From Frankia sp. AiPs1 (GTDB lineage Bacteria; Actinomycetota; Actinomycetes; Frankiales; Frankiaceae): a stretch of DNA of 64,000 nt. Shown here in pieces: positions 10,044 to 64,000 of this stretch; position 1 is the first letter of the stretch; each line of letters opens with the position of its first letter. Position numbers and translations under genes: made by a program. The stretch lies in contig NZ_JAMQQF010000003.1 of NCBI RefSeq assembly GCF_023716945.1, forward strand, positions 1 through 64,000, read 5' to 3'. Under the pieces are notes generated by a model. That model was not told the origin of the DNA. It saw only the letters and a list, made by a program, of their open reading frames with translations, and did not search any database.

Positions 10044-10139
10044 CACCCGCGGGGCAGCGTCGTCCCAGAAACAGCCCTTCTGGCTTGCCATGCGCCGATA
10101 GGGTTGTGATGCCCCTGTTGCCCAACGTGAGGAGCCGAT

Positions 10140-38311: not shown

Positions 38312-38677
38312 GCGACCTTGCCTTCCCGACGCGTCGCGATGGCCGAGGGAGCGTTGCTGCTCGTCCAGGAAGCGGCCGCGGAAAGATCCACGGAACGGAG
38401 CGGGCTGGAAGGCGTCGATCCCCGGGCCCCTGGGAACCCGCGATCGGCTGAGGGCGAGTTCCCCGTAGTCCTCCTGGAAACGTTCCCGGCTCGGCCTGGC
38501 GCGGCCGTTCTGAGGCTTTCCCCGACGGCGTGTTCGCAGGGGACCACCGGGGGCGAGGCGCCAGACGGTGGTCGGCATGCCGCAACCGTGGGCGGGCTGC
38601 GTGCGCGCTTCCGCCCATGGGGTCCGAGGCGCTTCATCAGGCGACCCGAAGTTCGCCTCCGGAGAGGTATAAGCCGC
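38312..38677. other. Divergent intergenic region between relaxase and transfer-associated gene
   Basis: No gene. Carries the divergent promoters of the relaxase and of the 38678 gene. An origin of transfer would be expected near a MobF gene, but no clear inverted-repeat nic site was recognised by eye. Confidence 0.35.
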
Positions 38678-44114: not shown

Positions 44115-45652
44115 GCGACCCCTCCGCGCCGGTGTACCGGCTGACGCGACGCCGCGGCGGGGCGGCGTTGCTGGGGCTCGCTCCGATTCCGCTGGTTCTG
44201 CTCACCGTCGGGGTCGTCACGCTGATCGTCTCGCCGCTGGTCGGGGCCTTGGCCGTGGGTGTTCTCGTCGCGGTCGTCTGCGGCCTGCTGGCGATCCTGC
44301 CCGCGCCAGGTGGCCCGCTGTATCAGATGCTGCCGCTGGCCGTCCGTCATCTGACTCGGCGGGTGGTGGGGGGCGACCGGTGGACCGCGTCGCTGCCCTT
44401 GCTGAGCGGGACCGCAGCCGTCCGCGCGGGAAGGGCGACCGACGATGGGGAACTGTTGCCGCCGCTGCTGCGCGGTCTGGACATCGTCGCGGTTCCTCGT
44501 GCGGCGGCCAGTGGGGCCGCGGGCACGGTGGCCCCGATCGGGCTGGTTCGGGATCGGCGTGGTGGGACGCTGACCGCGGTGCTCGCGGCCCGGGGCGGCG
44601 CGTTCGCGTTACTCGACCCCGCCGAGCAGCATCAGCGGCTGTCCGCCTGGGCGGCGATTCTTTCCCACGCGGCCCGTGACCCTGCGCTGGTCCGTCTGGG
44701 CTGGACGCTGTGCTCGGCCCCCGCCCCGTTGACCGATCATCACCGCTGGCTCGCCGAACGCGTGCGCGAGACGCCTGCAGGCGATGGGTATGCACGTGCC
44801 GCCGCCGACTATCGAGCGCTGCTCGACGATGCCGGCCCCACCCTCACCCAGCATGATCTTCGTCTGTGGTTGACGATCGACACCCGGCGTCTGCCTCGGC
44901 GTACCGATCCGACGGACGCCGCGGTGCGCACGGCCCTGGCCGTGCTCGAGCAATGCCAGGACGCGGGACTGGACGTCGCCGTCCCCGACTCCCCGGTGCA
45001 GATCGCCCAGGCGTTACGGCTGCGCGCCGACCCGACGGCCGCGGCCACTGTGCCCGGAGTCCGACGCAGCCTCGCCGAACACGCAGGTCTTGCCAGCGCA
45101 CTGGCCGGCGTCCACGCAGGCCCGCTGGCACTACGCACCCATTGGGACGCGGTAGAGGTGGACAGCGTCTGGCATCGCCTTTTCTGGGTCGCGCAGTGGC
45201 CTGCCTTGGGACTGCAGCCAGGGTGGCTGGATCCTCTGCTGATCCACGCCGAGGGCATGCGCACACTGAGCCTGCTGTGCGAACCAGTCTCGGCGCGCCT
45301 GGCACGGCGGCGGATCACCTCCGATGCCGTGCAGGTCGAGTCCGCCGTCGCCGCTCGCGAGAAGTACGGCTTTCGCGTCCCGACGCACCTCGCCAACGCA
45401 CAGGCCGCCGTCGACCAGCGCGAGATCGAGCTGCACGGCGGCCATAGCGAGTACGGCTACCTCGCCCTCGTCGACGTCGCCGCGGCCACCCACGACGAGC
45501 TCGATCAGGCCAGCCGGCGCCTGGCCGACCGCGCCGCGCAGACCGGCATCACCGAACTACGTCCCCTGCACGGCCGGCATGACCTGGCCTGGGCCGCGAG
45601 CCTGCCGGTGGGCCGCGGCCCCGGACGTGGACTGCGCGCCGCTGTCCACTGA
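44111..45652 (+). CDS. SCO6880-type (PrgI/VirB4 N-terminal-like) conjugation protein
   Basis: A 513-residue protein starting GTGA over the previous stop. Residues 15-70 hold two membrane helices (GLAPIPLVLLTVGVVTLIVS, LVGALAVGVLVAVVCGLLAI). The remaining cytoplasmic part has the features of SCO6880 proteins that stand next to VirB4 in actinobacterial type IV systems: LIHAEGMRTLSLLCEPVSAR, then RRITSDAVQVESAVAAREKY. It probably supplies the membrane anchor and N-terminal domain for the separate ATPase encoded next. Confidence 0.75.
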   Translation: MSDPSAPVYRLTRRRGGAALLGLAPIPLVLLTVGVVTLIVSPLVGALAVGVLVAVVCGLLAILPAPGGPLYQMLPLAVRHLTRRVVGGDRWTASLPLLSGTAAVRAGRATDDGELLPPLLRGLDIVAVPRAAASGAAGTVAPIGLVRDRRGGTLTAVLAARGGAFALLDPAEQHQRLSAWAAILSHAARDPALVRLGWTLCSAPAPLTDHHRWLAERVRETPAGDGYARAAADYRALLDDAGPTLTQHDLRLWLTIDTRRLPRRTDPTDAAVRTALAVLEQCQDAGLDVAVPDSPVQIAQALRLRADPTAAATVPGVRRSLAEHAGLASALAGVHAGPLALRTHWDAVEVDSVWHRLFWVAQWPALGLQPGWLDPLLIHAEGMRTLSLLCEPVSARLARRRITSDAVQVESAVAAREKYGFRVPTHLANAQAAVDQREIELHGGHSEYGYLALVDVAAATHDELDQASRRLADRAAQTGITELRPLHGRHDLAWAASLPVGRGPGRGLRAAVH

Positions 45653-45690
45653 CACCATGTCTCACCCTCACGATCCGACCGGAGAGGCCC

Positions 45691-46992
45691 ATGGCCATCA
45701 CCATCGAGGCATTGCGGGACTGGCGCTTCACGCTGCCGCGCGACCTTGCTACCACCGCGCACCTGTGCACGCTGTACCCGTTCACGATTCAGGCAGGATC
45801 CGGGGTCACCGGCGTCCTGCTCGGCGCGGACCGGCTCGCCGGCGGCGGCTTCTTCTTCGATCTTCACGAGGCCTATGCCCACGGCCTCATCCAGGGACCG
45901 AACATGCTGGTCACCGGTGCCGGCGCCTACGGCAAGAGTGCTCTCACGAAAGCCCTCGTCTACCGGTCCACGGTCCTTGCGCCAACCCGGTTCACCGCGA
46001 TCATCGACCCGAAGGGCGAGTGGACCGCGCTCGGCGCGGCCCTTGGCTGGGCGGTACTGCGCCTAAGCCCAGGCGGAACGGTCAGGGTGAACCCGTTCGA
46101 TCTCGGCCCGGCGCGCGCAGGTGCCGCAGCCGAGGACCTGCTCGCTCACCGGGTCGGCGTCGCGACGGCTCTGCTCACCCTGGCGCTCGGCCGCGCCGAC
46201 CTGTCTCCCGGTGACCGGCGCATCCTGCATGAATGCCTGCGTCATCTCACCGCCCACAGCGGCATTGCCAATCCGACCCTGCCGGACCTGCAGCGGATGC
46301 TCGCCGATCCGCCCGCGGTGATTGCTGACGCCCTCGACACCACCCGCGCGGACCTCGCCGAGCGGCGACGGCCGTTGCTGGACGCCGCCGCGATCCTCGT
46401 CGACGATGACCTTCGGGGCATCTGCGACACCACCACCAGTGTCGATCTTGACTGGGCGCAGACCCCTGGCCTCGTGCTGGACCTATCCGCGCTGCTGGCT
46501 CGACGGCGGACCCTGCGACTCGTGCTGACCGCGGCGGCGGGGTGGTTGCAGGGCGCGATGTACGGCGCGGTGGACCGGCGCAAACTTGTCATTCTCGACG
46601 AGGCATGGATTGCCCTTGAAGACCTGGCGATCACCCGGTTCCTGCAGGATCAGTGGCGCCTGGGCCGGCAGTGGGGCACCGCCAACATCCTGATCACCCA
46701 CGCCCTGGCCGACCTGCGCAGCCAGGTCGACGACGGCGCCGCCGCCGGGAAGATCGCCGAGGGGCTGCTCACCACGACCTCGGTGCGGGTGTTCCTGCAC
46801 CAGAATCCTGAGCAGATCCGGACGCTGCTCGCAGACCTAGGCCTGACCGGTACCGAAGCAACGCTGCTGCGGACGCTGCAGCCGTTTCAGGCCCTGTGGC
46901 GCGTGGGCAACACCTCAACCTTGGTCGACCATCTCATCGCCCCGTGGGAATGGGACCTGCTCGACACCGACCGCGCGATGAGCGCCACCTGA
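45691..46992 (+). CDS. VirB4-like conjugation ATPase
   Basis: A 433-residue protein. GPNMLVTGAGAYGKSALTKA contains Walker A (GAGAYGKS, near residue 75), and RKLVILDEAWIALED is Walker B with the downstream glutamate. TNILITHALADLRSQ and VRVFLHQNPEQI follow, as in VirB4/TraC ATPases. It is shorter than full VirB4 because the N-terminal domain appears to be in the preceding gene. It powers assembly of the transfer channel. Confidence 0.85.
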   Translation: MAITIEALRDWRFTLPRDLATTAHLCTLYPFTIQAGSGVTGVLLGADRLAGGGFFFDLHEAYAHGLIQGPNMLVTGAGAYGKSALTKALVYRSTVLAPTRFTAIIDPKGEWTALGAALGWAVLRLSPGGTVRVNPFDLGPARAGAAAEDLLAHRVGVATALLTLALGRADLSPGDRRILHECLRHLTAHSGIANPTLPDLQRMLADPPAVIADALDTTRADLAERRRPLLDAAAILVDDDLRGICDTTTSVDLDWAQTPGLVLDLSALLARRRTLRLVLTAAAGWLQGAMYGAVDRRKLVILDEAWIALEDLAITRFLQDQWRLGRQWGTANILITHALADLRSQVDDGAAAGKIAEGLLTTTSVRVFLHQNPEQIRTLLADLGLTGTEATLLRTLQPFQALWRVGNTSTLVDHLIAPWEWDLLDTDRAMSAT

Positions 46993-49544: not shown

Positions 49545-52019
49545 CTACCAGGTGGGCCCGTCGGCGATTCGCCCATCCAAGGCAAACCCATAACGCCGCA
49601 GCCGCTTGTCCCCCGACTTGGCGAGCATGTCGGCAAGCCCGCTCGCGGCGAATCTATCGCCGGCGTCGGCGCGCTGGCGCAGCTTGTCCTGGTCCCCCTC
49701 CTCGGCGAGCAGGTCGGCCAGCCGGCTCGCGGCGAGCACGTCGCCGGCGTCGGCGCGCTGGCGCAGCTTGTCCTGGTCCCCCTCCTCGGCGAGCAGGTCG
49801 GCCAGCCGGGCCGCGGCTTCCCAGTCGCCGGCGTCGGCGCGCGGGCGTAGGACGTTGATCGCACCTTGCCGATCCTTTGTCTCAACGAGCAGCTCGGGCA
49901 GCCGGATCGCGGCTTCCCAGTCGCCGGCGTTGGCGCGCTGGCGCAGCTCGTCGTGGTCCCCCTCCTCGGCCAGCCAGCTTGCGGCGAACCCATAGTCGGC
50001 GTCGGCGCGCTGGCGCAGCTCGTCCCGGTCCCGCGGCTCGGCCAGCAGGTCGGCCAGCCAGCTTGCGGCGTCCCAGCCGTCGGCGTCGGCGCGCGGGCGT
50101 AGGAGGTCGATCGCACCCTGCTGATCCCCAGCCTCGGCGAGCAGCTTCGCCAGCCGGCTCGCAGCGAGCACATCGTCGGCGTCGGCGCGCCGGCGCAGCT
50201 CGTCCCAGTCCCCCGACTCGGCCAGCAGGTCGGCCAGCCGGATCGCGGCGTTCCAGTCGCCGGCGTCGGCGCGCGGGCGTAGGAGGTCGATCGCACCCTG
50301 CTGATCCCCAGCCTCGGCGAGCAGGGCGGCTAGGCAGCCCGCGGCGAACCCATCGCCGGCATCGGCTTGCTGGCGCAGGAGGGGGACGGCGAGTGTGTAG
50401 ACCCGGTAGTTAAGGGCGGTTTCGGTGAGGCGGGTGAGGTCGTCAGGGTGGGTGGGGTGGTCGCGCAGCGCGGCCCACAGGCTGGCTGGGGGGCGTTCGC
50501 CGCGGCGGGTGCGGGTGGCCTCTTGGAGGAGATAGTCGGCGACGGTGTAGCCGGCGATCATGCCCATGCCCATGCCGTTGCTGGTGGGAGCGAGGGCGGC
50601 GGCGGCGCCGTGGAGTTCCTCGGTGGCGTAGATAAGGGCGTTTTCGAACCAGTTGGCTGGTGCGGTGGCTTGCTGGCGGGGGGTGCAGTAGTCCGGGGCA
50701 GCGTCGCGCAGCAGGCCGGCGGTCAGAGCGGCGCGGGCGCCGAGGCGGGCGGCGTCAACTGCGGCGGTGAGGACCGCCCAGGCGTAGGGGCGATCGGTGT
50801 GGGCGCTGGTCCACCGTCGGAGGAGTTCGGGGGCGGCGGCCAATGTCTGGGTCAGCCCATAGCCGGCGCTGTTGTCCAGTCCTGCCTGGATCCGCCGGTC
50901 TTGTGTGGCGGCGTGACTGGCGCGCTCCTGCTCGGCGGTGCTGAACTGGTCGTCGACGTCGACGACGGCCGCTAGGCGCAGGACGTCGCGTTCCCACCGG
51001 GAAGAGTCGAGCTCGTCAAATTTCGGGTGAGCGGTGAAGTGGCGAAAGTACTCCGGCCAGAGCGTGCCCACGATCACTACCGGGCTGGCAGCGTCGAGCA
51101 GAGCACGTAGAACACCCGCGGTCAGGCCGTGTTCACCGTCGAAGTATTTCTGGAGCTCATCAAGCCAGAGCACGCTCTGGGCGGGGGGTGCTGTGGCGAG
51201 GGCAGTGATCTGCGTGGCGCTGGCGGGGTGGATCAGTCGCCAGTCGGCCAGTTCGGCTTTGACCGCTTCGACCGCGCAGCGGGTCTTGCCGACCGAGGAT
51301 CCCCCGACCAGCAGCACGAACCCACCCCGCCCGGCCGCAGTCCGTAATTGGGCCCGGACCCCGTTGCGGGCCCGGTCGATGTCGCGTTCCACGTAGACCG
51401 GCGGGGTGTTGTCGCCGAGGTCGGACAGCTGGATCGCCCGGTGTACCCCGAGCCGGTATGGATCGGCGTCGGCGACCCGCAGCCGGCCCGGGAACACCGG
51501 CTCCGTCACCAATCCTGCCCGCCGGGCGGGCCCGCCGGGAAACGACGGTTCGGCCGGCGGTTTCCCCCGCTGCCCGCGGGCCGCGGCGACCAGCCGGGCG
51601 GCTGCGGCATCCGGGTCGACGTCGAACAGATCGACGCCGACCACTTGGCCGAGCAGTCCTGGGCGGGAGCAGTCTTCGATCCGGAACACCAGCAGCTTGC
51701 GATCCTGACCGGACGGATCCCGCTCCCAGGCAGCCTGCCACTCTGCCGCCGCATACGCCGAGGACAGATACGCCGTCGACAGCACCGCGACCGTCCGCGC
51801 CGCATGCTGCGCGGCCTGGTGCATCTCGGTGACGAAATGCGCCCCGGCGCCGAAGTCCCACGCCTGGATCAGCGTGGTGTAGCCGGCGGCTTCCAATTGC
51901 CAGGCCACCCACTGCGCCCATGCCTCGTCTACCGCCGTGTACGAGACGAAAAAGTCCACCGGCCCCGGCGAACCCGATGCTGTGTCGGTCGCTGGCGGGA
52001 CCCCCATGCCCATCACCAT
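49545..52019 (-). CDS. TIR-STAND protein with 28/60-residue tandem repeats
   Basis: An 824-residue protein from ATG 52019 (an upstream ATG at 52085 is possible). TIR domain at about 20-150: VDFFVSYTAVDEAWAQWVAW, with the likely catalytic glutamate E93 in SSAYAAAEW. The STAND ATPase follows with LLVGGSSVGKTRCAVEA (Walker A at about 239-246) and VLWLDELQKY. Residues from about 560 are helical repeats of the form RADAGDVLAASRLADLLAEE, with GDQ(D/Q) turns. TIR domains of such proteins hydrolyse NAD+ or make cyclic ADP-ribose signals, and the repeats sense a trigger. Antiphage abortive infection is the best inference. Confidence 0.8.
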   Translation of the reverse strand: MVMGMGVPPATDTASGSPGPVDFFVSYTAVDEAWAQWVAWQLEAAGYTTLIQAWDFGAGAHFVTEMHQAAQHAARTVAVLSTAYLSSAYAAAEWQAAWERDPSGQDRKLLVFRIEDCSRPGLLGQVVGVDLFDVDPDAAAARLVAAARGQRGKPPAEPSFPGGPARRAGLVTEPVFPGRLRVADADPYRLGVHRAIQLSDLGDNTPPVYVERDIDRARNGVRAQLRTAAGRGGFVLLVGGSSVGKTRCAVEAVKAELADWRLIHPASATQITALATAPPAQSVLWLDELQKYFDGEHGLTAGVLRALLDAASPVVIVGTLWPEYFRHFTAHPKFDELDSSRWERDVLRLAAVVDVDDQFSTAEQERASHAATQDRRIQAGLDNSAGYGLTQTLAAAPELLRRWTSAHTDRPYAWAVLTAAVDAARLGARAALTAGLLRDAAPDYCTPRQQATAPANWFENALIYATEELHGAAAALAPTSNGMGMGMIAGYTVADYLLQEATRTRRGERPPASLWAALRDHPTHPDDLTRLTETALNYRVYTLAVPLLRQQADAGDGFAAGCLAALLAEAGDQQGAIDLLRPRADAGDWNAAIRLADLLAESGDWDELRRRADADDVLAASRLAKLLAEAGDQQGAIDLLRPRADADGWDAASWLADLLAEPRDRDELRQRADADYGFAASWLAEEGDHDELRQRANAGDWEAAIRLPELLVETKDRQGAINVLRPRADAGDWEAAARLADLLAEEGDQDKLRQRADAGDVLAASRLADLLAEEGDQDKLRQRADAGDRFAASGLADMLAKSGDKRLRRYGFALDGRIADGPTW
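49600..50360. repeat. Coding tandem repeats within the TIR-STAND gene
   Basis: Two near-identical 84-base units begin around 49671 and 49755 (28 residues each). A longer 180-base unit is repeated, its copies at about 50101 and 50281 sharing an identical stretch of more than 40 bases. High DNA identity shows recent duplication within the sensor region. Confidence 0.75.
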
Positions 52020-52288
52020 AAGCCAGCCAGCATCACGACGAACTGTCACACCCCGGCGGCGGGACATCATCCCGCTGCCGGGCATGGAGTCGCAGGCACT
52101 GCGCTACCCGGAGTGCGACTCCTTCAGCTTGAGAGCCGGCGTGGCAGAACGGTCCGTGTCGGTGGTCCGAGCTGACCGAGGCGCCACCTGCTCGAGCGCC
52201 GCGAAATGGGCCAGGGATGCGAGGACGGTCGTCACGAATGCGCCGAGTGCCGGCAGCGGCTCGGTACTGCCAGTGGCAGGCAGGCCGG

Positions 52289-54652: not shown

Positions 54653-55068
54653 GTCTTCGAGCGAAGAGCCGGGAGTCACGGGATGCTCCCCGGCATGCCA
54701 CCTCTTGGAGATCTGCGTCAGCGGCCGCTTCGACGTGGCTTGCGCGGCCATCGGACCGGGCTTGCCGTGCACCTCCGCACAGGCTCGCGGAGGGGGACCC
54801 GGTAGGACATCGCCGGCAGTCACCCAAGCGACCCGGGTGGTTGAATTCAACTCAAGGACCAGGTCTACCTGCAAGGATTTGGTCGGAGACCCGCCCCCGT
54901 CGCTATCCCGGCGTGGCATACGCGCACCCCTGAGGCCCCGCGCGTAGAATGCGGGCTTCCTGGTACGCTATGCGCTATCTACGGAGCTGTCTGTGTTGCA
55001 TCTTGCCGTTCACCTTCACACCGGAGATCCCGGAAGGCTGGTCTCTCGGGCTGATATGGGGGCAGCTC
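54653..55068. other. Intergenic stretch upstream of the Nudix gene
   Basis: No gene recognised. The sequence around 54960-54980 (GGTACGCTATGCGC) is a plausible promoter patch for the Nudix gene, but no defined -35/-10 pair was found. Confidence 0.3.
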
Positions 55069-55632
55069 GTGGCGATCAGTGATTCGGACATTGCGAGGGC
55101 GCTTTCTACTTACATTGAGCGTTACCCCGACGAGGCCACGCTCCTGGCTGAGCCGCTGCTACTACTTTCTCAAGGACGGGGTTTTGCCTCGAGGCGGACA
55201 CTTCCGATGCATGTAACCGCTGGAGCGCTTCTGGTCCGTAGCGACGGCCACGGAGGTGCCGAGATCCTGCTGATCGAGCACCGCGCGTACGGAATCACGT
55301 TGCAGCCTGGCGGTCACCTGGAGCCGACCGACACCACACTCATCGGCGCGGCAGTGCGCGAGTTGACGGAGGAGACCGGTGTTGACCCCGACACGGTCAT
55401 TCCCGCGTCGCAGACCCCCGCCTACATCGAGTACGGCCAGGTTCCGGCGCGCCCGACGAAGGACGAGCCGGATCACTACCACCTCGACATCGGGTACGCC
55501 TTCACCACGGCGTATGCAGAGGTGGGGCGCATCCAGGAGTCCGAGGTGCACGGTGCCGCATGGTATCCGCTCGCCGTGGCCGAGCGGCTTGTCGGCCACC
55601 GCATCGCGCGGGCGGTCCGTGCACCGGCCTAG
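55069..55632 (+). CDS. Nudix hydrolase
   Basis: A 187-residue protein; GTG 55069 follows a G-rich ribosome-binding site. The Nudix box is GGHLEPTDTTLIGAAVRELT followed by EETGV. All helix glutamates are kept, with D in place of the first E. An N-terminal helical extension of about 45 residues precedes it. Convergent with the exonuclease that ends the right-hand operon. It may clear a nucleotide by-product of that operon, which is inference from position. Confidence 0.8.
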   Translation: MAISDSDIARALSTYIERYPDEATLLAEPLLLLSQGRGFASRRTLPMHVTAGALLVRSDGHGGAEILLIEHRAYGITLQPGGHLEPTDTTLIGAAVRELTEETGVDPDTVIPASQTPAYIEYGQVPARPTKDEPDHYHLDIGYAFTTAYAEVGRIQESEVHGAAWYPLAVAERLVGHRIARAVRAPA

Positions 55633-55751
55633 ACCGGTTGTTGACCGGGGCTCGTTGAATGCCTCCGACAGCATGTGATCTGCCAATCGGGGCGCCTCGG
55701 CCCGACCTGCTCGACTTCCAATAGCCAACGTGGGGTGATCCATGCCCACGG

Positions 55752-56456
55752 TTATCTCGGGCCGGTTGTGCCCTGATCTTCTTCCGCCGGGAGTTCGATG
55801 TCGAACAGGCCACCCTGGACGGGCCTGTTGCTCTTGGCTGTGCGTCCCGCGAGCTTTACCAGGGCCGCGAGATCGCCGAGCTGCGGATCTTCGTCCGCGA
55901 CGCTGACGAGCCGGAAGAACATCTGGGCGGTGACGTCAACGTCAGCAGGGGCCCGGTGACGATTTGGCGGCTGCTTGATCTGGAAATGGGCCAGCAGCGT
56001 GTCGAGGCGGTAGTTCGGCAGACCTGGGATGAGGTGCGTGGCGAGCGGGATCGTATCGAGAAAGTCGATGTGGGCCAGCGCCGGGCAGTGCTCGCGCTGA
56101 TTGTGGATGATGTTGGCTTCGGTGGCGGCGTGTTGAGCGACCAGCAGGTACTGAATGCCTTCAGTGAACCGCCGGTCCAATGCGCCCAGGGCGTCGGTCG
56201 GGCTGGGCGCCTGGCGCAGTTGCTCGGGGGTGAGGCCGGTCTGGGCTGTGTCGGCCGGCGTCACCGGGGCGAAGGCGGGCGGCCGGATGAGGGAGGTGTA
56301 CCTACCGGCCTCGCTCCACCCGCCGTCGTCGTAGCGGAGCGCGAGAGCGGCGACCTCGGTGGGCTGAGCCGGGTGGCCCGCAGGGGTCGTCGCTTCGAAG
56401 TCGATAACCACGAAGGTGGTCGCTCGAAAGGCGGGATCTTGTGTCAAACCCCCCAT
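55752..56456 (-). CDS. DEDDh-family 3'-5' exonuclease
   Basis: A 234-residue protein from ATG 56456. VIDFEATTP holds the D-x-E pair (D19, E21), VAQHAATEANIIHN the second acidic-box helix region, and RHRAPADVDVTAQMF the His-Asp pair. This matches the epsilon/oligoribonuclease-like fold. The typical D of ExoII is replaced by E in A-A-T-E-A-N. Last gene on the minus strand of the right-hand group, 101 bases after the ligase-like gene, so membership in the operon is uncertain. Confidence 0.75.
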   Translation of the reverse strand: MGGLTQDPAFRATTFVVIDFEATTPAGHPAQPTEVAALALRYDDGGWSEAGRYTSLIRPPAFAPVTPADTAQTGLTPEQLRQAPSPTDALGALDRRFTEGIQYLLVAQHAATEANIIHNQREHCPALAHIDFLDTIPLATHLIPGLPNYRLDTLLAHFQIKQPPNRHRAPADVDVTAQMFFRLVSVADEDPQLGDLAALVKLAGRTAKSNRPVQGGLFDIELPAEEDQGTTGPR

Positions 56457-56557
56457 GCATCCACCGCTTTCTTCCTCGTCAGGTCGGGTCGTGGCGGTCG
56501 CTCGCCCGCGCCTGGTGTCGAGATGGAGGGTGCCGGGGCGCCCACTGCCATGATGTG

Positions 56558-57526
56558 TCAACACTGAATAAGGCTGGAGGCGGCCTGCGTGGCGGTCTTC
56601 AGGCTCGGCGCGTTCCAGCGCCGCTCGCCTGTCCAGGTCTCGCTCAGGGCTCGGTACAGGTCTGACATCACCGGAACGAACTCGGGCGGGAGGGGCGCCG
56701 GCTGTGACCATAGGCTTCTGGGCACACCGTCGTTGATCAGAGCGTCGACCGGCACCTCCAGCCTGTTCGCCACGTACCAGTCCCGGAGGATCTGCTTGCC
56801 GCAGTGGACTTCGCCGAACATCAGGCGGCTTTCGTCGGGTGTGCCGGGGCTGTCAGCGACCACGAGGCGCGCATCGCTCGACACCAGGAACTCGACCTTG
56901 CCGTCACAGTGCCTCAGCCCGACCTCGTTGCTGTGCTCGGTAAGCACCTGGTCGACCGCGATGGCGGTGTCGCGCATCGTCTGGAACTGCTCGTCGCTCA
57001 GAGCGGCGAGGCGCTGGGCCTCGGGCGCGCTGACGTAGCGGTTGACGTCCTCCAGCATGGTCGCGTACTCGACGAATGGGCGCTCAAGCCGCTGGTCGTC
57101 CGTGGGAAGGTTGGTGAGGCCGAGCTCGGCCAGTGTCAGGGTGCCTGCTGCGAGCCGGCGGTGAACGGAGCTTCCTGGCGGGAGCTCGGTGCGGATGAGG
57201 ACCTGCACGGGGACGAGGTAGGGTCCGGCGTCCGGCGTGAACGGCCCGGTGTCGGGGCCTGGCACGCGGGCGAGGTCGAACTCGATCCGGTTGGGGGCGA
57301 TGAACCGGCGGAAGTGGGTGGGCACGCCTGCTGCTTCCAGCATCGTGAAGGTGAAGGCGGCCATGTGGGCGATCGCCTCACCTTTTCCGGGGATCGGGTC
57401 CGGCATCCGGCCGTAGTGGAACACCGTGTAGTGGTCGGTGTACTCGAAGATTCCGACGCCCTCTCTCGTAGACGTGGGCGGATCGATGATCTCCAGGTTC
57501 TTGGTCGAGTGGAGGACGGGCATCAT
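56558..57526 (-). CDS. SAICAR-synthetase (PurC)-like ligase
   Basis: A 322-residue protein. YTDHYTVFHYGRMPDPIPGK is the nucleotide-binding N-terminal segment of PurC, with D-x-x-x-x-F and P-G-K-G. VQVLIRTELPPGSSVHRR matches the V-R-x-x-x-x-G-S segment. The catalytic D-F-K-x-E-F and D-E-x-S-P-D boxes appear as HCDGKVEFLVSSD and VADSPGTPDESRL, so they are recognisable but altered. PurC enzymes join aspartate to a carboxylated imidazole with ATP. The altered boxes and gene setting suggest a different acceptor, as for PurC homologues in pentostatin-type clusters. Confidence 0.75.
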   Translation of the reverse strand: MMPVLHSTKNLEIIDPPTSTREGVGIFEYTDHYTVFHYGRMPDPIPGKGEAIAHMAAFTFTMLEAAGVPTHFRRFIAPNRIEFDLARVPGPDTGPFTPDAGPYLVPVQVLIRTELPPGSSVHRRLAAGTLTLAELGLTNLPTDDQRLERPFVEYATMLEDVNRYVSAPEAQRLAALSDEQFQTMRDTAIAVDQVLTEHSNEVGLRHCDGKVEFLVSSDARLVVADSPGTPDESRLMFGEVHCGKQILRDWYVANRLEVPVDALINDGVPRSLWSQPAPLPPEFVPVMSDLYRALSETWTGERRWNAPSLKTATQAASSLIQC

Positions 57527-57554
57527 GCTCCCCGGGTGCGACGGCCTCGCGCCG

Positions 57555-58244
57555 TCATCGGACGGAACCTTCTGGTCGAGGTGGCGTGGTGGCCGGTTCG
57601 GCGTCGTCGGCCAGGTGGCCGTCGACGACCGTGATCACGTGCATGCCGGCCGTGCGGGCCGAGGTGACGCCGTCGCGGGCGTCGTCGACGGCCAGGCAGT
57701 GGCGCGGCGGGACCTCGAGGCGCCGGGCAGCCAGCAGGTACAGGTCGGGGGCCGGCTTGCCCTTCGTGACGTCCTCGCGCACGACGACCGCCGCGAACTC
57801 CCGCGTCAGGCCGAGGGCGTGAAGGCCCGGATGGACGAGCAGGCGACTGGCACCTGAGGCCACGGCGCAGGGCAGCCCAGCACGGCGGGCGTGGCGCAGG
57901 AGTGCGATGACGTATGGGACAGGGGTGATGCTGTGCACGGTGGCCAGCAGATGCGCGCGGCTCTGGGCGATGATCTTTTCGTGTGGCAGGTGCCGACCAC
58001 CCGGTAGCGCGTCGAGCAGGTCGTGGATGGACAGGCCGACGTGTCCGCGATACCAGTCGTGGTCCAAGCCGACGCCGTGTGGCGTCAGCGCCGCTCGCAG
58101 CGCCTGCTCGTGGCTGGGTGTGGTATCGCCGAGGGTGCCGTCGAAGTCGAACACAACGGCCTTGATGCCGGCAGGGATCGCGGGCAGGCAGGTGGCCGCT
58201 GGGCCCGGCTGGGGGCTGATCGAGGGAGAGGCCGTCTCGTTCAC
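57555..58244 (-). CDS. HAD-superfamily phosphatase
   Basis: A 229-residue protein starting at the GTG that overlaps the upstream stop (GTGA). DFDGTLGD (D33, D35) is motif I, VASGASRL is motif II, TKGKPAPD is the lysine loop and LAVDDARDGVTSARTAGM is motif IV. A helical cap lies between motif I and II, as in phosphoglycolate and beta-phosphoglucomutase-like enzymes. It probably dephosphorylates a pathway intermediate. The ligase-like gene starts 28 bases downstream. Confidence 0.85.
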   Translation of the reverse strand: MNETASPSISPQPGPAATCLPAIPAGIKAVVFDFDGTLGDTTPSHEQALRAALTPHGVGLDHDWYRGHVGLSIHDLLDALPGGRHLPHEKIIAQSRAHLLATVHSITPVPYVIALLRHARRAGLPCAVASGASRLLVHPGLHALGLTREFAAVVVREDVTKGKPAPDLYLLAARRLEVPPRHCLAVDDARDGVTSARTAGMHVITVVDGHLADDAEPATTPPRPEGSVR

Positions 58245-59089
58245 GCGGGCGCCGGGTTCGCGTGGTGGCCGCAGCACATGCACCGGGCAATGAGGTCCTG
58301 CCACGGCTCGCGCAGGCAGCCCAGGTCGGTCCCAGCGTCGTGGATCCACGCCCGGATCAGCTCGGCCGCCTCGTCCTCGTCGACGCTGCGCCGGTCCACG
58401 ACCCGGTAGCGGACCGGATCGGTGGCGGCGAGCCGTTCGTAGAGTTCGCGTACCTCACGGATGAACGTGGCCTGCTCGCTGGTGAAGACGCGCTGGTCGC
58501 GGCGTTGCGCACGCCCGATGGCTGCGGAGGCGTCGTCGGTGATCAGGATCGTGAGGTCGGGCAGCGGCCGGTAGGAGGAGGCGAGTTCCAGCAGGGCGAT
58601 CGCCGTGTCCAGGGCGGCGTCGCCGTCATCAGGGTGCAGCAGCAACGCCTGGCACACCGCTGTTGTGTCGACGCCGCGGCCCTCGATGACTGCCCGTCCG
58701 CGCGACAGCTCGCCGACGGCGGCGTCCAGGTCATGCCGCTTGATCGCCAGCAGGATCAGGGTTTCGGTCAGGGGCGTGCCCCCGCGTAGGAACGGGTCAC
58801 CTGCGCTGGCCTCGCGCAGCGCGCCCAGCAGGGCTTCACCCAGTCCCGGGCGACCGTCGGCCCGCTGGGAGAACCCTTCCAGTGTCAGCGGCCTGTCGTC
58901 GAGGGCGTGCACGGCGCGCCTAGTCAGATATGTCTTGCCGACTCCCGTGACACCGTCGACGGAGATCAGTGGGCCGCGGGTGCAGGAAGGGCGTATCGAG
59001 GCGATCGTCATGTGGGCAGTTCCGTTCCGGGACGAGGATGGTGCCGCGGAAGGGGTCGCTCCGGTGGGGGTGTGGTGCTGGTCGGTCAC
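58241..59089 (-). CDS. P-loop nucleotide kinase, thymidylate-kinase-like (kinase A)
   Basis: A 282-residue protein from GTG 59089, overlapping the aminotransferase stop (GTGA); ATG 59011 is an alternative. ISVDGVTGVGKTYLT carries the P-loop (about 46-53), RAVIEGRGVDTTAVCQALLL the second acidic/arginine motif, and LTILITDDASAAIGRAQRRD the lid region. The C-terminus has a small Cys/His cluster (CMCCGHH). The fold matches dTMP kinase-like enzymes, but the substrate-side D-R-Y/H motif is replaced. It is homologous to the second kinase at 61225, sharing the R-G-V-D-(S/T)-x-A-V-C-Q-A signature. Confidence 0.75.
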   Translation of the reverse strand: MTDQHHTPTGATPSAAPSSSRNGTAHMTIASIRPSCTRGPLISVDGVTGVGKTYLTRRAVHALDDRPLTLEGFSQRADGRPGLGEALLGALREASAGDPFLRGGTPLTETLILLAIKRHDLDAAVGELSRGRAVIEGRGVDTTAVCQALLLHPDDGDAALDTAIALLELASSYRPLPDLTILITDDASAAIGRAQRRDQRVFTSEQATFIREVRELYERLAATDPVRYRVVDRRSVDEDEAAELIRAWIHDAGTDLGCLREPWQDLIARCMCCGHHANPAPA

Positions 59090-60192
59090 GGGGCCCATGC
59101 GGCGGCCTCGTGGGTGATGACGGCGGCATACCTGTCGAGGGTGGTCTTGGCGTCGCGTTCGGTGAGGATGACGGCGAGGGTGTGGTCGAGGATGTCGGCG
59201 GCACCACGGCACGGACGGCCGTGGCCGGTGAACATGGGCCGGGTGTCGCAGGGGACGAGTCGGAAGCTGCCGGTGGAGTTCGGCACTCCCTGCTGGGCGA
59301 GGTGCTGCGCGAACCTACGGGGGCTGGGCAGGTCGATGTGCAACAGCGGGGCGAAGCCGTTCCACTCCTCGCCGGTGGCTGATGGCAGGGCTACCAGGCC
59401 GGATGCCTGCTTCAGGGTGTCCAGCAGGTAGCGGGTCTGCGCGCGGCGCCGTTCAACCAGCGCGGGGAGCCGGCGAAGGTTTGCCAGGGCGATCGCGGCG
59501 AGCGGCGCCGCGAGGCGGGAGTTGGTGGCCAGGCGGCTGAATGGGGCTTCGCCGGCGGGGGCCTGCTGCCAGTGGTTGCGGAACGCGGCAGCGTGCTGCG
59601 CGATCTCGGGTTGGGCGGTGAGCAGGAAGCCGCCCTCGCCGCTCCAGAGGATCTTGCCGTCCTTCATGCTGAAGCAGCCGACGCCGACGGTGCCGGCTTG
59701 CTTACCGTCGCGGGCGGTGCCAGCAGCCTGTGCGGCGTCCTCGATGACGGCGAGCCCGCGGGTGGACGCGAAGGCCGTCAGGGCCGCGGGGTCTCCCATC
59801 CGGCCCCATAGGTGGACCGGGATGATCGCCCGGGTCCGCGAGGTGACCTTGCGGGCTGCGTCGTCGTAGTCCAGGTCCAGGGTGGCCGGGTCGCTGTCGA
59901 CGAACACCGGCACCGCCCTCAGGGCGGCCAGGGGCGCCACAGTCATGACGACGCTCAGCGCCGGAACGAGGACTTCGTCTCCTGGACCGATGCCGCAGGC
60001 CGACAGCGCAGCGTGCAAGGCCGCGGTGCCGGAGGACACCGCGACGACGTGCGACACGCCGAAGACCTCGGCGAGGTCGTGCTCCAGTTGCGCGACGTCC
60101 GGCCCGCCGCTCGGGTCGGGCATCTGCGCGACAACCGCGGCGAGCTGCTCCACGAGTGGCTGCGTCCCGCCGGGGAGCGCAGGCAGTGTCAT
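59086..60192 (-). CDS. DegT/DnrJ/EryC1/StrS-type PLP aminotransferase
   Basis: A 368-residue protein. VAVSSGTAALHAALSACGIG, EDAAQAAG and GCFSMKDGKILWSGEGG (PLP lysine about K180) are the family signatures. These enzymes transfer an amino group to a keto-sugar or similar ketone, or in some cases dehydrate. The N-terminus QPLVEQLAAVVAQMP is slightly short. ATG overlaps the radical SAM stop (ATGA). Confidence 0.9.
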   Translation of the reverse strand: MTLPALPGGTQPLVEQLAAVVAQMPDPSGGPDVAQLEHDLAEVFGVSHVVAVSSGTAALHAALSACGIGPGDEVLVPALSVVMTVAPLAALRAVPVFVDSDPATLDLDYDDAARKVTSRTRAIIPVHLWGRMGDPAALTAFASTRGLAVIEDAAQAAGTARDGKQAGTVGVGCFSMKDGKILWSGEGGFLLTAQPEIAQHAAAFRNHWQQAPAGEAPFSRLATNSRLAAPLAAIALANLRRLPALVERRRAQTRYLLDTLKQASGLVALPSATGEEWNGFAPLLHIDLPSPRRFAQHLAQQGVPNSTGSFRLVPCDTRPMFTGHGRPCRGAADILDHTLAVILTERDAKTTLDRYAAVITHEAAAWAP

Positions 60193-61235
60193 CGCCCCGG
60201 CCCCGGGTCCAGTAGCCGCGGCATGTCCAGGACGAGGGGCCACATGTTCACACAGTCACGGCTGAACAGCGTGCAGTCCGTGCACGTCGGCCGCGCGGCG
60301 AACAGCGTGCGCGCGTCGCCGTCCTCGATGGTGCGCAGCAGCGCGGGCGTATGCGTGACCTGGGCGGCGATCCGGCGATCGGACGGGCAGTCCCAGACCG
60401 ACCCGTCGGGCTGGATGAAGAACAGGCGCGCGCCGCCGAAGCAGTCAGGCACATGCCCGCCCTCATGGGTGGAGATCGCGGTGATGAAGCGCTGGACATA
60501 GGACGGGTCGGGCAGAGCCAGCCCCTGGGGGTCGTTGTAGAGGAGGTCGAGGTACTCGCCGACGTCGGTGACGTCGGCGGGGGTGTGGCACATCGGGTGG
60601 AAGAGCTGGTGGTCGGTGGCGAGGGAGATCGGCTGCGGCACGTAGTAGTCGACACCGAGGTCCGCCGCCAGCCGCGCCACGTCGGTGATCTCCTGCGGAC
60701 GTGATCGCGTGACCACGGTGTAGATCCCGACCCTGGGCGTGGGCTTTTCGTCGCGAGCCTGGAGCAGGGCACCGATGCCTTCCAGGACGTCGTGGTAGCC
60801 GAAGCGACCCGACCGGGACGGCCGCATCTGGTCGTTGGTCTCGGGGTCCGCGCTGTCGAGCGACACCGACACGCCGTCGACTCCGAGCGCGACCAGGCGC
60901 TCGGCCACGTGCGGGCGGGTGAGCGGAACACCGTTCGTCGCGACGACGACCTGGCAGCCCCCGTCCTTGATGAGGGAGATCACTTCCAGTGCGGGGGGCC
61001 AGTCCAGCGGCTCCCCACCAGCGAGGATCACCCGCTCGACAGGCGAGTCCGCCAGCGTCCGCGCGAAGTCCGTCAGCGCCTTCGCCGGCAGGTCGGTACG
61101 CGCCAGGTGCGACAGGACACCTGCCTGCTCCGGCGGGGCGTCCTTGTGCTTCTCGATGGTGCCGAAGTAGCAATGCGGGCAGGCGAACGCGCACGGGGAG
61201 CGCAGAGCCCATAACAGGGTCACGTCACGAGGCAT
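60189..61235 (-). CDS. Radical SAM protein with SPASM-like C-terminus
   Basis: A 348-residue protein. CAFACPHC (C15, C19, C22) binds the [4Fe-4S] cluster. ILAGGEPLDWP is the G-G-E motif, VSVSLDSADPETNDQMRPSR a typical strand, and the C-terminal ARPTCTDCTLFSRDCVNMWP holds further cysteines for an auxiliary cluster. It is closer to MoaA/PqqE-type peptide or small-molecule enzymes than to QueE. The start overlaps the upstream kinase stop by 11 bases. Confidence 0.85.
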   Translation of the reverse strand: MPRDVTLLWALRSPCAFACPHCYFGTIEKHKDAPPEQAGVLSHLARTDLPAKALTDFARTLADSPVERVILAGGEPLDWPPALEVISLIKDGGCQVVVATNGVPLTRPHVAERLVALGVDGVSVSLDSADPETNDQMRPSRSGRFGYHDVLEGIGALLQARDEKPTPRVGIYTVVTRSRPQEITDVARLAADLGVDYYVPQPISLATDHQLFHPMCHTPADVTDVGEYLDLLYNDPQGLALPDPSYVQRFITAISTHEGGHVPDCFGGARLFFIQPDGSVWDCPSDRRIAAQVTHTPALLRTIEDGDARTLFAARPTCTDCTLFSRDCVNMWPLVLDMPRLLDPGPGR

Positions 61236-61932
61236 GGGTGGCCTGTCGATCCAGCAGCGTGGTCACGACCTCCTGGACGGCGGCGGCGGTCTCCTCCGGC
61301 GACATGCCGGCCGTGTCCAGGAGCGTGAACCGTCCGGGATCGCGGACAGCCGCCTCGCGGTAGAGGATGTCGATCTGTTCGAGTACCTGCACGTCCGCCA
61401 GCGTTAGCGAGCACCCGATCCGGTCGGTGAAACGCCGCGCGCACACCCAAGGGTCACCGGTGAGCGCGATGGTCGCGTCTGGCAACGCCGTCCACCGCCG
61501 AGCACTCGACAGCACGTGCCGGGCCACCGCGTCGGGCGATGATTCCGGTTGCTGGGAGCACAGGATCGCCGCCTGGCACACGGCGACGGAGTCCACGCCA
61601 CGGTCCTCCAGGATCACCCTGACTCCGGTCAGGTCCCGTGTGGCCAGTCGCTCGGTCTTGCGGACCTCCAACGCGAGCAGGGCGAGGGTCTCCACGGCCG
61701 GGTTACCCGTGCGCAGGAAAGGGTCGCCTTCGGCGCTCAACGCGGCGATCACCCGTCCGGTCAGTGTGTCGCCGGAGTCGGTGAGCTCGTCCAGAAGCAG
61801 ACACCGCGCGCCGAGCGCGGCGGCGACCGAGCGGGCCGCGCTGGTCTTCCCGACACCGTTGATCCCCTCGATGCTCACCCACAGCGATGTGGCTCCGAGC
61901 GCGAGCCTGCCCGTCGGTGTCGAGGCGTTCAT
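61225..61932 (-). CDS. P-loop nucleotide kinase, thymidylate-kinase-like (kinase B)
   Basis: A 235-residue protein. SIEGINGVGKTSAARSV carries the P-loop (23-30), RVILEDRGVDSVAVCQAAIL the second motif, and TIALTGDPWVCARRFTDRIG the lid. It shares overall order and several motifs with kinase A but only moderate identity. Size fits dTMP kinases. Two diverged kinases in one operon suggest consecutive phosphorylations or two different substrates. Overlaps neighbours at both ends (ATGA; 11 bases). Confidence 0.75.
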   Translation of the reverse strand: MNASTPTGRLALGATSLWVSIEGINGVGKTSAARSVAAALGARCLLLDELTDSGDTLTGRVIAALSAEGDPFLRTGNPAVETLALLALEVRKTERLATRDLTGVRVILEDRGVDSVAVCQAAILCSQQPESSPDAVARHVLSSARRWTALPDATIALTGDPWVCARRFTDRIGCSLTLADVQVLEQIDILYREAAVRDPGRFTLLDTAGMSPEETAAAVQEVVTTLLDRQATHAS

Positions 61933-62762
61933 GCCGGCCTCCGGCAGACGTAGAGCAGTTCCGTGGCCACGTCGGGAACGGCGACGGCGGAGACCGTGTC
62001 CAGCAACGCCTTGGGGACGCGTTCGACGAGATCGCGGTACCAGGCTGCCGCAGCCTGCCCGTACCGGTCGGTGAGCGCGGCCACCATTGCCTCCGGTGCG
62101 GGCGGCAGCAGGCCCATCACGTCCTCAATGATCAGGCCCGCGCCTGCGATCACCTGCTCGACCTCCTCGCGCGACCACTCATAGACATGGACGCGGTACT
62201 GCAACGGACGAGGCGGGGGCCCGACGGCCGCCGGGGTGGACAGGAAGAGCACTCCCTGTGGTCCCAGCGCCGCGGCGGTGCTGCGCAGGCTCTGCACGCC
62301 GAGCTCGAACGGCAGATGCTCCAGCGCCGAGGTGTAGAGCGCGATGCCGAAACCCTGCTTGGGCGAGGGCAGATCAGGCCAGGGCTGGGCGACGTCGCAT
62401 TCCACCAGCGCCACCGGGAAGGGGTCGCCGTACGTCGAACGCAGGGCCTCGATCCGCTCCCGGGCCTCCTCGAGATTGGCGGCGCTGATGTCCAGCCCGA
62501 CATACCCCGCGATCGTCGGGGCGCAGCGGAACAACAGCGGCAGCGCCAGGCCCCGGCCGCAGCACACATCCAGTACACGCGAGCCGGGCGCGCACCGCTC
62601 AGCGACGATCAGGTGCTGCAAAAGGTTCATCAGACCCGACGGCTTGGCCTCACCGCGGCCCAACGCCGCGTAGAAGTCATCCATCTGGTTGGTGCTGTAG
62701 GGTCCCACCATCGGAGTTCCCGGCCGGGTCACATACTGCTCCGACGGCCGCGCAGCATTCAT
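61929..62762 (-). CDS. Class I SAM-dependent methyltransferase
   Basis: A 277-residue protein. SRVLDVCCGRGLALPLLFRC is motif I (63-77), YVGLDISAANLEEARERIEA motif II, and IALYTSALEHLPFELGVQSL motif IV/post-IV. The N-terminal 50 residues (YSTNQMDDFYAALGRGEAKP) form a substrate lid. It is likely to methylate a small molecule of this pathway. Start overlaps the phosphoribosyltransferase stop (ATGA). Confidence 0.85.
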   Translation of the reverse strand: MNAARPSEQYVTRPGTPMVGPYSTNQMDDFYAALGRGEAKPSGLMNLLQHLIVAERCAPGSRVLDVCCGRGLALPLLFRCAPTIAGYVGLDISAANLEEARERIEALRSTYGDPFPVALVECDVAQPWPDLPSPKQGFGIALYTSALEHLPFELGVQSLRSTAAALGPQGVLFLSTPAAVGPPPRPLQYRVHVYEWSREEVEQVIAGAGLIIEDVMGLLPPAPEAMVAALTDRYGQAAAAWYRDLVERVPKALLDTVSAVAVPDVATELLYVCRRPA

Positions 62763-63355
62763 CCTTCCGCCTCGGCCGGCGCGTCCGAAAGGCGGACTCG
62801 TGGCGAGGCCGGCACGATCAGGTCCTCGCTGGTCTGCGTCGGCTCATTCCAGGGGAAGACGACCCAGTCGAGTGTGTCCCACACCCAGGTGTCCGGGGTG
62901 AAAGCCGCCGCCTCGCTACGGCATAGCGCCGCGGTGCGCACAGCGGCCGGGACCAGATGCGTTTCCAGCCATCTCACCGCCGCACGATAGGTGGAGCCGG
63001 TGCCGCAGATGTCGTCGACGAGCAGGATCCGGGCTTCGCGATGCGCCGCCAGGGCTCCATCGGGTTCCTGGGGCAGCTCGACCTGCCCGGTCGCGGCAAG
63101 GTATACCTCGTCGCTGCGATTGTGGCGGGCCGTCAACTCCACAACCGGCACTTCGTAGTGCGCGGAGAGCAACTGGGCCAGCGGAACCCCACCGCGGGCA
63201 ATCCCGACCACCACGTCGGGTGTCGGCTCCCGCTCGGTGATCAGCGCGGCAGCAGAGGTGAAAGCGTCCTGCGCCAGACGCCAGATACGGCGGTGTTCGA
63301 AGACGCGATCCACGACCGCGTCATCGTCAGGCGGGGCGGTAGGGCGGCCTGCCAT
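62759..63355 (-). CDS. Purine-type phosphoribosyltransferase
   Basis: A 198-residue protein from ATG 63355. ARILLVDDICGTGSTYRAAV contains the PRPP-binding motif (about 111-122), and VVVGIARGGVPLAQLLSAHY is the first PRT loop. The fold resembles HGPRT/XPRT-like type I PRTases. It would attach ribose-5-phosphate to a base (or remove it), which ties the operon to nucleotide chemistry. The start lies 22 bases after the GTP cyclohydrolase stop. Confidence 0.85.
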   Translation of the reverse strand: MAGRPTAPPDDDAVVDRVFEHRRIWRLAQDAFTSAAALITEREPTPDVVVGIARGGVPLAQLLSAHYEVPVVELTARHNRSDEVYLAATGQVELPQEPDGALAAHREARILLVDDICGTGSTYRAAVRWLETHLVPAAVRTAALCRSEAAAFTPDTWVWDTLDWVVFPWNEPTQTSEDLIVPASPRVRLSDAPAEAEG

Positions 63356-63377
63356 GGTGTCCACGGGATACCCGCTC

Positions 63378-63956
63378 TCATTCGGGGTGGGTGTGGGGGT
63401 GCGCGAGGGCGAGGAACTGCTGGGAGAGCACCGGGTCGCTCTGGAACCGGCCGCGGGCGCACAGTGAGCGGGTGCGGGCGGCCTCCATCCGGACACCCCG
63501 CATGCTCATGCACAGGTGCGTGCCGCGGACGGCTACGGCTACGTCGTCACTGCCGATCACGCTGGCGAGTTCGTCGGCGACCTGGCGGGTGAACCGTTCC
63601 TGGACCTGGAGACGGCCGGCGTGCCGCTGAGCGATGCGGCCGAATTTCGACAGGCCGAGGAGCTGTCCCGCGGGCACGTACCCGGCTGTGACCTGGAGGT
63701 TCATGGGCAGCAGGTGGTGCTCGCACAGCGACCACACGCTCATGCCGCCCACGACGACCAGCTCGCCATTCACGTGTGACTCGGCGAAGCACGTCGCGGT
63801 CGCGGCGCTGTCCGGGGACAGAAAGGTGTTCCACCAGGACGCGACTCGCTCCGGAGTGCCACTCAGTCCCTCGCGGGCGGGGTTCTCACCCAGCGCGACC
63901 AGGAGCTGGGCGATCAGGTCGGAGACCCGGCCGGTGTCGATGCACGGCGCGGGCAC
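63378..63956 (-). CDS. folE: GTP cyclohydrolase I
   Basis: A 192-residue protein from GTG 63956. The frame is open to the window edge, so the true start may lie outside. ALGENPAREGLSGTPERVAS is the N-terminal signature. WSLCEHHLLPM gives the zinc ligands C78 and H81 with H80, and HLCMSMRGVR gives C149. GLSKFGRI and RFTRQVADEL complete the active site. Converts GTP to dihydroneopterin triphosphate. It is the first visible gene of the right-hand operon, where it probably feeds a specialised pathway rather than folate alone. Confidence 0.92.
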   Translation of the reverse strand: MPAPCIDTGRVSDLIAQLLVALGENPAREGLSGTPERVASWWNTFLSPDSAATATCFAESHVNGELVVVGGMSVWSLCEHHLLPMNLQVTAGYVPAGQLLGLSKFGRIAQRHAGRLQVQERFTRQVADELASVIGSDDVAVAVRGTHLCMSMRGVRMEAARTRSLCARGRFQSDPVLSQQFLALAHPHTHPE

Positions 63957-64000
63957 GGAGAGCGTGGGTGCGGCGCTGCACTCCGGCGCGGTCGGGTCGG

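Follow-up and report, generated by a model that had tools for sequence, protein, structure and literature searches.

In the tubercidin (tub) cluster, genes for a GTP cyclohydrolase I, a CPH4 synthase and a 7-carboxy-7-deazaguanine (CDG) synthase are found with a CDG-PRPP transferase and a Nudix hydrolase; TubE has been shown to be the transferase, making CDG ribotide, and TubG is the Nudix hydrolase (PMC6112128). The toyocamycin/sangivamycin (toy) pathway also leads from GTP to CDG (ToyB-D) and includes a ribosylation, but proceeds to preQ0 via ToyM (QueC). In huimycin (hui) biosynthesis, QueD, QueE, FolE and a methyltransferase are combined with QueC and a GlcNAc-adding glycosyltransferase (PMC7439116). 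The puromycin and 3'-amino-3'-deoxyguanosine (ADG) pathways begin at ATP or GTP and involve ketone formation by an NAD-dependent dehydrogenase, an aminotransferase, a Nudix hydrolase and a phosphatase, all acting on phosphorylated nucleosides (PMC9239236, PMC11641026). Pyrazofurin and formycin are C-nucleosides with a pyrazole base, for which a SAICAR synthetase homologue amidates the ring carboxylate of the ribotide; in pyrazofurin, this PurC-type route involves PrfC and the lyase PrfB (PMC8724604).

The operon described here, from the soil actinomycete Frankia and found in a window of 64,000 nucleotides (the whole stretch of DNA analysed), resembles tub in these five functions, whereas the UbiD-type decarboxylase and the reductase TubD occur only in tub, and PurC, radical SAM, DegT, methyltransferase, exonuclease and two thymidylate-kinase-like (TMK) genes only in Frankia. 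It differs from toy in having PurC and no QueC, and from hui in that the hui gene table contains no phosphoribosyltransferase (PRTase), radical SAM, DegT or PurC gene (PMC7439116). The puromycin/ADG-type set is matched by protein class only, with DegT, NUDIX and HAD genes beside the radical SAM gene; the pathway would start from a CDG ribotide and use the radical SAM enzyme, and no NAD-dependent dehydrogenase (Pur10/AdgB) was found among the operon genes, all of which belong to other Pfam families. In contrast to pyrazofurin and formycin, the predicted product is a 7-deazaguanine N-nucleoside and the locus has no lyase. The operon probably belongs to the already known class of 7-deazapurine nucleoside clusters, as FolE, QueD and QueE occur together and the sugar-attaching enzyme is a PF00156 PRTase with a PRPP motif and a predicted CDG specificity. 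Its gene combination is a new variant, and no published description of this gene set was found in the literature searched.

Extent and conservation of the operon

A first-pass annotation, made from the window, had described a compact minus-strand operon in which neither PTPS (QueD) nor QueE was visible. All ten of its genes (10/10) are present and their families in a Pfam search match the earlier assignments, yet the operon is bigger than was said. The contig (80,965 bases) runs past the 64-kb window edge into QueE (contig 64075-64821), directly upstream of FolE, and then into QueD (contig 64818-65228; Pfam PTPS, E 3e-24), both on the minus strand; the best NCBIfam match of each is the QueE or QueD model, respectively, under its curated cut-off. 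The apparent lack of these genes is thus explained by the window edge, which cut the operon. The full unit reads QueD-QueE-FolE-PRTase-methyltransferase-TMK1-radical SAM-DegT-TMK2-HAD-PurC-exonuclease, on the minus strand, with the NUDIX gene divergent. When start codons were re-examined, several reading frames in the supplied list proved to begin too far upstream, and the true start of FolE (63378..64000 in the window, extending to contig 64019; GTP cyclohydrolase I, PF01227, E 2e-49) was placed at about 64019, beyond the window. Overlaps of 4 bases join QueD/QueE, PRTase/methyltransferase, methyltransferase/TMK1, radical SAM/DegT, DegT/TMK2 and TMK2/HAD, and an overlap of 11 bases joins TMK1 to the radical SAM gene. 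Elsewhere in the window, an ARAGORN 'tRNA' at 50175-50272 was dismissed, as it has no amino acid assigned and sits within a coding frame.

The set recurs in near-identical order in 28 other PurC-bearing loci from 14 actinomycete genera, which argues against a chance grouping and supports the proposal that a small molecule derived from a nucleotide is the product of a conserved, compact operon; no scattering of the same genes was seen in these relatives. The PRTase, both TMKs, the radical SAM enzyme, DegT, PurC and the exonuclease are encoded in 28/28 of these loci, HAD and NUDIX in 27/28 each and QueC in 0/28, and FolE, QueD and QueE are conserved in relatives. Sister families have the core in common with the PurC-bearing loci, and the QueC-bearing sister loci are without PurC; among the 44 radical SAM-bearing loci, 40 contain the exonuclease. 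An Rv2466c/DsbA-like gene is intact in the other PurC-bearing loci; its complete absence from the window copy was ruled out by a remnant at 55677..55760 on the minus strand (75% identity over 28 residues, in-frame stop; PF22234 fragment). Owing to the loss of this accessory gene, the window copy may be decaying.

Proposed formation of the nucleotide scaffold

Since QueE and QueD lie just past the window edge, the base is almost certainly CDG, and the pterin-derived product suggested earlier was rejected. FolE, QueD and QueE together would convert GTP into CDG. The operon FolE is 42.5% identical to the housekeeping FolE, a separate gene (C393), and QueD is present in one copy only in the Frankia genome. 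No PF06508 (QueC) match was found in this genome (92% complete), so the pathway should end at the carboxylate; together with the lack of QueC from the PurC-bearing loci, this led us to reject a preQ0 route. The PRTase (62759..63355, minus strand; PF00156, E 2e-21), in which the PRPP motif LLVDDICGTGST is conserved and whose closest solved structures are purine PRTases, is a putative CDG-PRPP transferase that would form the 5'-ribotide from CDG and PRPP, as TubE does.

FolE, QueD and QueE are also common to the dpd and queuosine pathways, and the operon could in principle supply a precursor with which DNA or RNA is modified by 7-deazaguanines, modification of DNA having been raised in the first-pass annotation. 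Such a role is very improbable: the PRTase would yield the ribotide in free form, for which base-exchange systems have no need, the genome has no QueC match, none of the genes annotated in five plasmid copies is TGT/DpdA-like, and no phage relative was found in IMG/VR (two scans) or in a phage collection. The latter result also led us to drop a phage origin. For a nucleotide second messenger, another earlier suggestion, nothing resembling a nucleotide cyclase or an effector was seen.

The operon further encodes a class I SAM-dependent methyltransferase (61929..62762, minus strand; Pfam assignment), the first of two mutually exclusive types, of which each PurC-bearing locus has exactly one (the window type in 19/28, an unrelated type in 9/28). 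In TMK1 (61225..61932, minus strand; PF02223, E 2e-8), a nucleotide kinase, the P-loop and the EDR motif are both conserved, whereas TMK2 (58241..59089, minus strand; PF02223, E 1.2e-7), which is 34% identical to TMK1, has EGR in place of EDR.

Radical SAM enzyme and aminotransferase

The radical SAM enzyme (60189..61235, minus strand; PF04055, E 1.5e-18) carries extra twitch/SPASM-like cysteines that are conserved; the CX3CX2C motif plus twitch cysteines, a pattern that in BtrN-like dehydrogenases binds one auxiliary cluster, is present along with an additional cysteine. We infer that it acts as a nucleotide dehydrogenase, although in twitch/SPASM enzymes similarity is no guide for predicting the chemistry (PMC6231123). 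Its structure was modelled (pLDDT 86) from an alignment in which plasmid-record sequences were left out. The best fold match is BlsE (Z 21.7), a decarboxylase with a nucleoside as substrate, followed by MoaA and viperins at Z ~18; BtrN is not among the fold matches listed, which carries no weight against a BtrN likeness. For viperin family membership, the NF038283 score of 53.4 bits is under the curated cut-off of 180, and the PADLOC viperin model gives 62.8 bits. The adjacent DegT/DnrJ/EryC1/StrS aminotransferase (59086..60192, minus strand; PF01041, E 8e-70) has a conserved PLP lysine region, and its closest solved structures are sugar and cyclitol aminotransferases.

With the CDG nucleoside scaffold kept, another radical SAM chemistry (viperin-like 3',4'-dehydration, BlsE-like decarboxylation or C-C bond formation) together with a DegT amination elsewhere would lead to a different 7-deazaguanine nucleoside. 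The fold matches and the PADLOC score are consistent with this possibility, which we judge somewhat unlikely, as is the TMK-like kinase adjoining the enzyme, since viperin is paired with CMPK2. However, viperin is not known to have auxiliary-cluster cysteines, and those observed here favour an oxidation by two electrons; a uronic acid gene that could provide a carboxylate for removal was not seen, and DegT accompanies the radical SAM gene in 44/44 loci.

The relation to viperin, the nucleotide kinases of the operon, its patchy and often plasmid-borne occurrence, the cas genes that adjoin one copy and the absence of a conserved exporter (an ABC transporter being found in only 9/28 PurC-bearing loci) would also be in agreement with a modified nucleotide for intracellular use, that is, a viperin-like chain-terminating anti-phage nucleotide and not an exported antibiotic. 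We consider this improbable, as the copy beside cas genes is the only inspected annotated one with known defence genes alongside, the NUDIX and HAD genes suggest nucleoside release, the methylation, amination and amide steps exceed the needs of a chain terminator, and an antibiotic fits the puromycin- and tubercidin-like logic.

Amide ligase, predicted phosphate removal and exonuclease

The PurC (SAICAR synthetase)-like amide ligase (56558..57526, minus strand; PF01259, E 3e-22) is far under the NCBIfam PurC equivalog cut-offs, and a different gene (C458) encodes the housekeeping PurC. In a low-identity alignment, the aspartate-binding residues K210, K244 and R248 are kept, as are D225 and R234, and two further substrate-site positions are changed (Glu97 to Gln, Lys131 to Met/Thr). 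The protein is predicted to couple the CDG 7-carboxylate with L-aspartate. Its closest distant relatives are found within rhizobial C-nucleoside-like loci, and no PurB-like lyase was found in any locus examined. The HAD protein (57555..58244, minus strand; PF00702, E 8e-29) is a putative nucleotide phosphatase, and the NUDIX hydrolase (54949..55632, plus strand; PF00293, E 1e-13) would carry out a pyrophosphohydrolase step. The last gene encodes a DnaQ-like 3'-5' exonuclease of the DEDDh type (55752..56456, minus strand; PF00929, E 6e-16), with Glu replacing one Asp, which may serve for self-protection of the producer.

Proposed pathway and product

The genes, their conservation, the active-site residues and the lack of a QueC match in the genome are read directly from the sequence. 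On this basis we propose, with a probability of about 0.5, a biosynthetic operon, probably on an element mobile between cells, for a CDG-based nucleoside, comprising the full pathway from FolE to release by NUDIX and HAD; the substrates, the order of the steps, the position of the amine and the role of the exonuclease are predictions. After ribosylation, one or both TMK-like kinases would add further phosphate. The radical SAM enzyme would then oxidize one hydroxyl of the ribose, most likely at 3' but possibly at 2', and DegT would convert the resulting ketone into an amine. The PurC-like ligase would form the amide at the 7-carboxylate, the succinyl group being either retained or lost as fumarate via the housekeeping PurB to leave a 7-carboxamide; the methyltransferase would add a methyl group, and NUDIX and HAD would remove the phosphates to release the nucleoside. 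The best model is a pathway of the puromycin/aminodeoxyguanosine type, with a radical SAM enzyme in place of the NAD dehydrogenase, plus a pyrazofurin-type amidation. Its product, most likely an antibiotic, would probably resemble guanosine, with an amino sugar and a side group in amide form. If this product had no 3'-OH, its triphosphate would stop RNA synthesis as a chain terminator, which the exonuclease would cut off to protect the producer. The types of reaction suggested in the first-pass annotation (rebuilding of the GTP ring, ribosylation and phosphorylation, methylation and amination, formation of an amide, and dephosphorylation) are supported.

Several features were counted against the best model, namely the EGR motif of TMK2, the NUDIX gene on the opposite strand, the lack of a PurB-like lyase and of a conserved exporter, the decarboxylase activity of BlsE as best fold match, the poor predictability of twitch/SPASM chemistry, the low identity of the PurC alignment with its two changed positions, and the lost accessory gene of the window copy.

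Significance

The pathway proposed here can be tested. It concerns a family of 7-deazaguanine nucleosides that occurs in 14 or more genera of actinomycetes, is often encoded on plasmids and is undescribed in the literature searched. In a broader reading, which we offer tentatively and regard as rather unlikely, amino-sugar 7-deazaguanine nucleotides would form a widespread family, often encoded on plasmids and divided into three or more chemical subfamilies. A radical SAM nucleotide dehydrogenase, DegT and a PurC-type amidation would make them, the exonuclease would clear the terminator from producer RNA, and the product would be exported and possibly also act against phages in the cell. No matching gene cluster for cadeguomycin, echiguanine, kanagawamicin or dapiramicin was found in the open-access literature, and the operon offers candidate genes for compounds without assigned genes, such as cadeguomycin. 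If the proposed pathway is true, it would represent a new QueC-free route from CDG to a 7-carboxamide, a new route to amino-nucleosides by a radical SAM enzyme and DegT, and possibly an example of self-immunity conferred by an exonuclease.

Gene content and conservation of the operon

The ten minus-strand genes that the first-pass annotation had placed in one operon (55752-63956) were all found, and each assignment is backed by Pfam. The contig is 80,965 bases long, in a 92%-complete genome of 7.35 Mb, and the window covers its first 64,000 bases. QueD and QueE had been reported missing, but this lack is only apparent because the window ends before them: QueE (contig 64075-64821) and QueD (contig 64818-65228) immediately precede FolE on its own strand. 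QueD contains the CX3HGH motif and QueE the CX3CX2C motif, both kept in relatives, and the majority of the operon junctions are 4-base overlaps.

The radical SAM protein matched 12 actinomycete plasmids by tblastn, with the gene set in near-identical order on five annotated ones, and its alignment gave 38 further loci in one genome-collection scan, built on two peptide patterns and not exhaustive. Only the radical SAM protein served as the query, so that the co-occurrence of other genes was not built in. Gene content was scored by phmmer. The phosphoribosyltransferase (PRTase), QueE, both thymidylate-kinase-like proteins (TMK1 and TMK2), the radical SAM protein, DegT, the exonuclease and an Rv2466c/DsbA-like gene were present in all 28 other loci holding the PurC-like gene, which represent 14 named genera, together with HAD (27/28), NUDIX (27/28), QueD (26/28) and FolE (25/28), some of the gaps being contig edges. 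QueC was detected in none of the 28. Each of these loci has one methyltransferase type, never both (the first in 19, the second in 9). In the genus, the radical SAM gene was found in 2 of 13 genomes, and in the class in 6 of 394.

Proposed biosynthetic steps

No match to QueC was obtained in the Frankia sp. AiPs1 genome, its single QueD is that of the cluster, and the housekeeping FolE and PurC are genes separate from the cluster copies. Taken together, these gene contents indicate that the shared pathway probably stops at 7-carboxy-7-deazaguanine (CDG). The solved structures nearest to the cluster PRTase are purine PRTases, and in the tubercidin pathway the CDG-PRPP phosphoribosyltransferase activity of TubE has been demonstrated (PMC6112128).

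The radical SAM protein keeps CX3CX2C and five more cysteines, in a twitch/SPASM-like pattern (motif from PMC6231123). The best fold match of its AlphaFold model (pLDDT 86) is BlsE (Z 21.7, 302 residues, rmsd 3.5), a decarboxylase acting on a cytosine nucleoside (PMC3715490). SkfB, PqqE, SuiB, MoaA and viperins follow at Z 18-20. The butirosin pathway employs a DegT-type aminotransferase, whose family is among the matches listed for the cluster DegT. In that pathway, the twitch dehydrogenase BtrN forms a ketone (PMC9012708). The puromycin and 3'-amino-3'-deoxyguanosine (ADG) pathways turn a nucleoside triphosphate into a 3'-amino-3'-deoxynucleoside with four enzymes, namely a dehydrogenase, an aminotransferase, a Nudix hydrolase and a phosphatase; RNA chains are terminated by ADG triphosphate (PMC9239236, PMC11641026). 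The last three protein classes are present in the cluster, whereas a radical SAM enzyme stands in place of the dehydrogenase; by analogy, the amine would be at the 3' position. The TMK2 family (58241-59089) carries EGR where TMK1 carries EDR, which suggests that its kinase function may be altered or lost.

In human PAICS, Arg232, Lys228 and Lys191 touch the aspartate carboxylates (PMC9376930). An alignment to the housekeeping PurC of this genome shows that the cluster PurC family retains K244, R248 and K210 in the corresponding motifs, together with three residues of the metal/substrate site, D225, D231 and R234. From a reading of the motifs, with the human sequence checked against the numbering in PMC9376930, Glu97 is presumably replaced by Gln and Lys131 by Met or Thr. 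This residue pattern suits a changed base with aspartate still the amine donor. In pyrazofurin biosynthesis, a carboxylate is amidated in this way by PrfC, like the cluster protein a SAICAR synthetase homologue, and the lyase PrfB (PMC8724604). No lyase was found in any of the loci examined, so that the succinyl group may either stay in place or be removed.

The closest distant PurC-like genes (41%) are on rhizobial plasmids, near a beta-RFAP synthase-like gene and PurH. In the Mesorhizobium and Aminobacter plasmids (L063, L064), a phosphoribosylanthranilate isomerase gene is also adjacent, and these loci look like a rhizobial C-nucleoside cluster.

The Rv2466c/DsbA-like gene is a fragment with a stop in this strain (55677-55760) and is intact in the other PurC-bearing loci. 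Both it and PurC were undetected in two Nocardiopsis loci (L015, L016), which suggests that the two proteins act together.

Related families and genomic context

All families share QueD, QueE, PRTase, TMK, radical SAM and DegT, and mostly the exonuclease. PurC is absent from L010, L011 (Streptomyces plasmids), L039 and L040 (Micromonospora), which have QueC-like and sugar-isomerase-like genes, the latter hydroxypyruvate-isomerase-like. Most copies of this sister cluster also have ribulose-phosphate-epimerase-like, nucleotidyltransferase and inositol monophosphatase genes, all these surrounding the radical SAM-DegT pair, and the plasmid copies have an NRPS-annotated gene. A third family (L036, L037, L041-L043, L046) has the same core and exonuclease. 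Loci such as L037 and L041 combine the radical SAM-DegT pair, the TMK and the exonuclease with a PIG-L deacetylase and a GT4 glycosyltransferase (Pfam), and lack both PurC and QueC; PIG-L also occurs in L036, and a PPDK/PEP-utiliser protein in L042 (Pfam). A Streptomyces plasmid locus (L008) has, immediately upstream of the cluster, a fusion of an HTH_31 domain to peptide deformylase (8987-10453), with homologues in L009 and L031. The linear 1.7-Mb plasmid of Kitasatospora sp. NBC_01519 (NZ_CP109408.1, part of which is L062) has three sites each for radical SAM and PurC-like genes.

The AiPs1 contig probably represents a conjugative plasmid or an integrated element, since it encodes a TrwC relaxase/helicase (33941-38773), two secretion-type proteins, a T2SSE ATPase (28993-30846) and a T2SSF protein (27282-28529), and a weak match to a TraG-like ATPase (45583-46989). 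It also encodes an IS605 OrfB/TnpB-like protein (13712-14899) that contains a Cas12f1-like TNB domain, and a TIR-domain protein (49545-52085) whose C-terminal part is repetitive and whose matches to PADLOC Argonaute-associated TIR models are only weak.

The exonuclease gene is present in 40 of the 44 radical SAM-bearing loci, and its sole solved sequence relative is the exonuclease domain of a PolC-type DNA polymerase III (E 3e-8); hypothetically, it could remove chain terminators. No description of the operon's gene combination was found in the open-access literature searched, and subscription journals may hold one. The locus is best read as a cluster for nucleoside biosynthesis, which is a known type of system.
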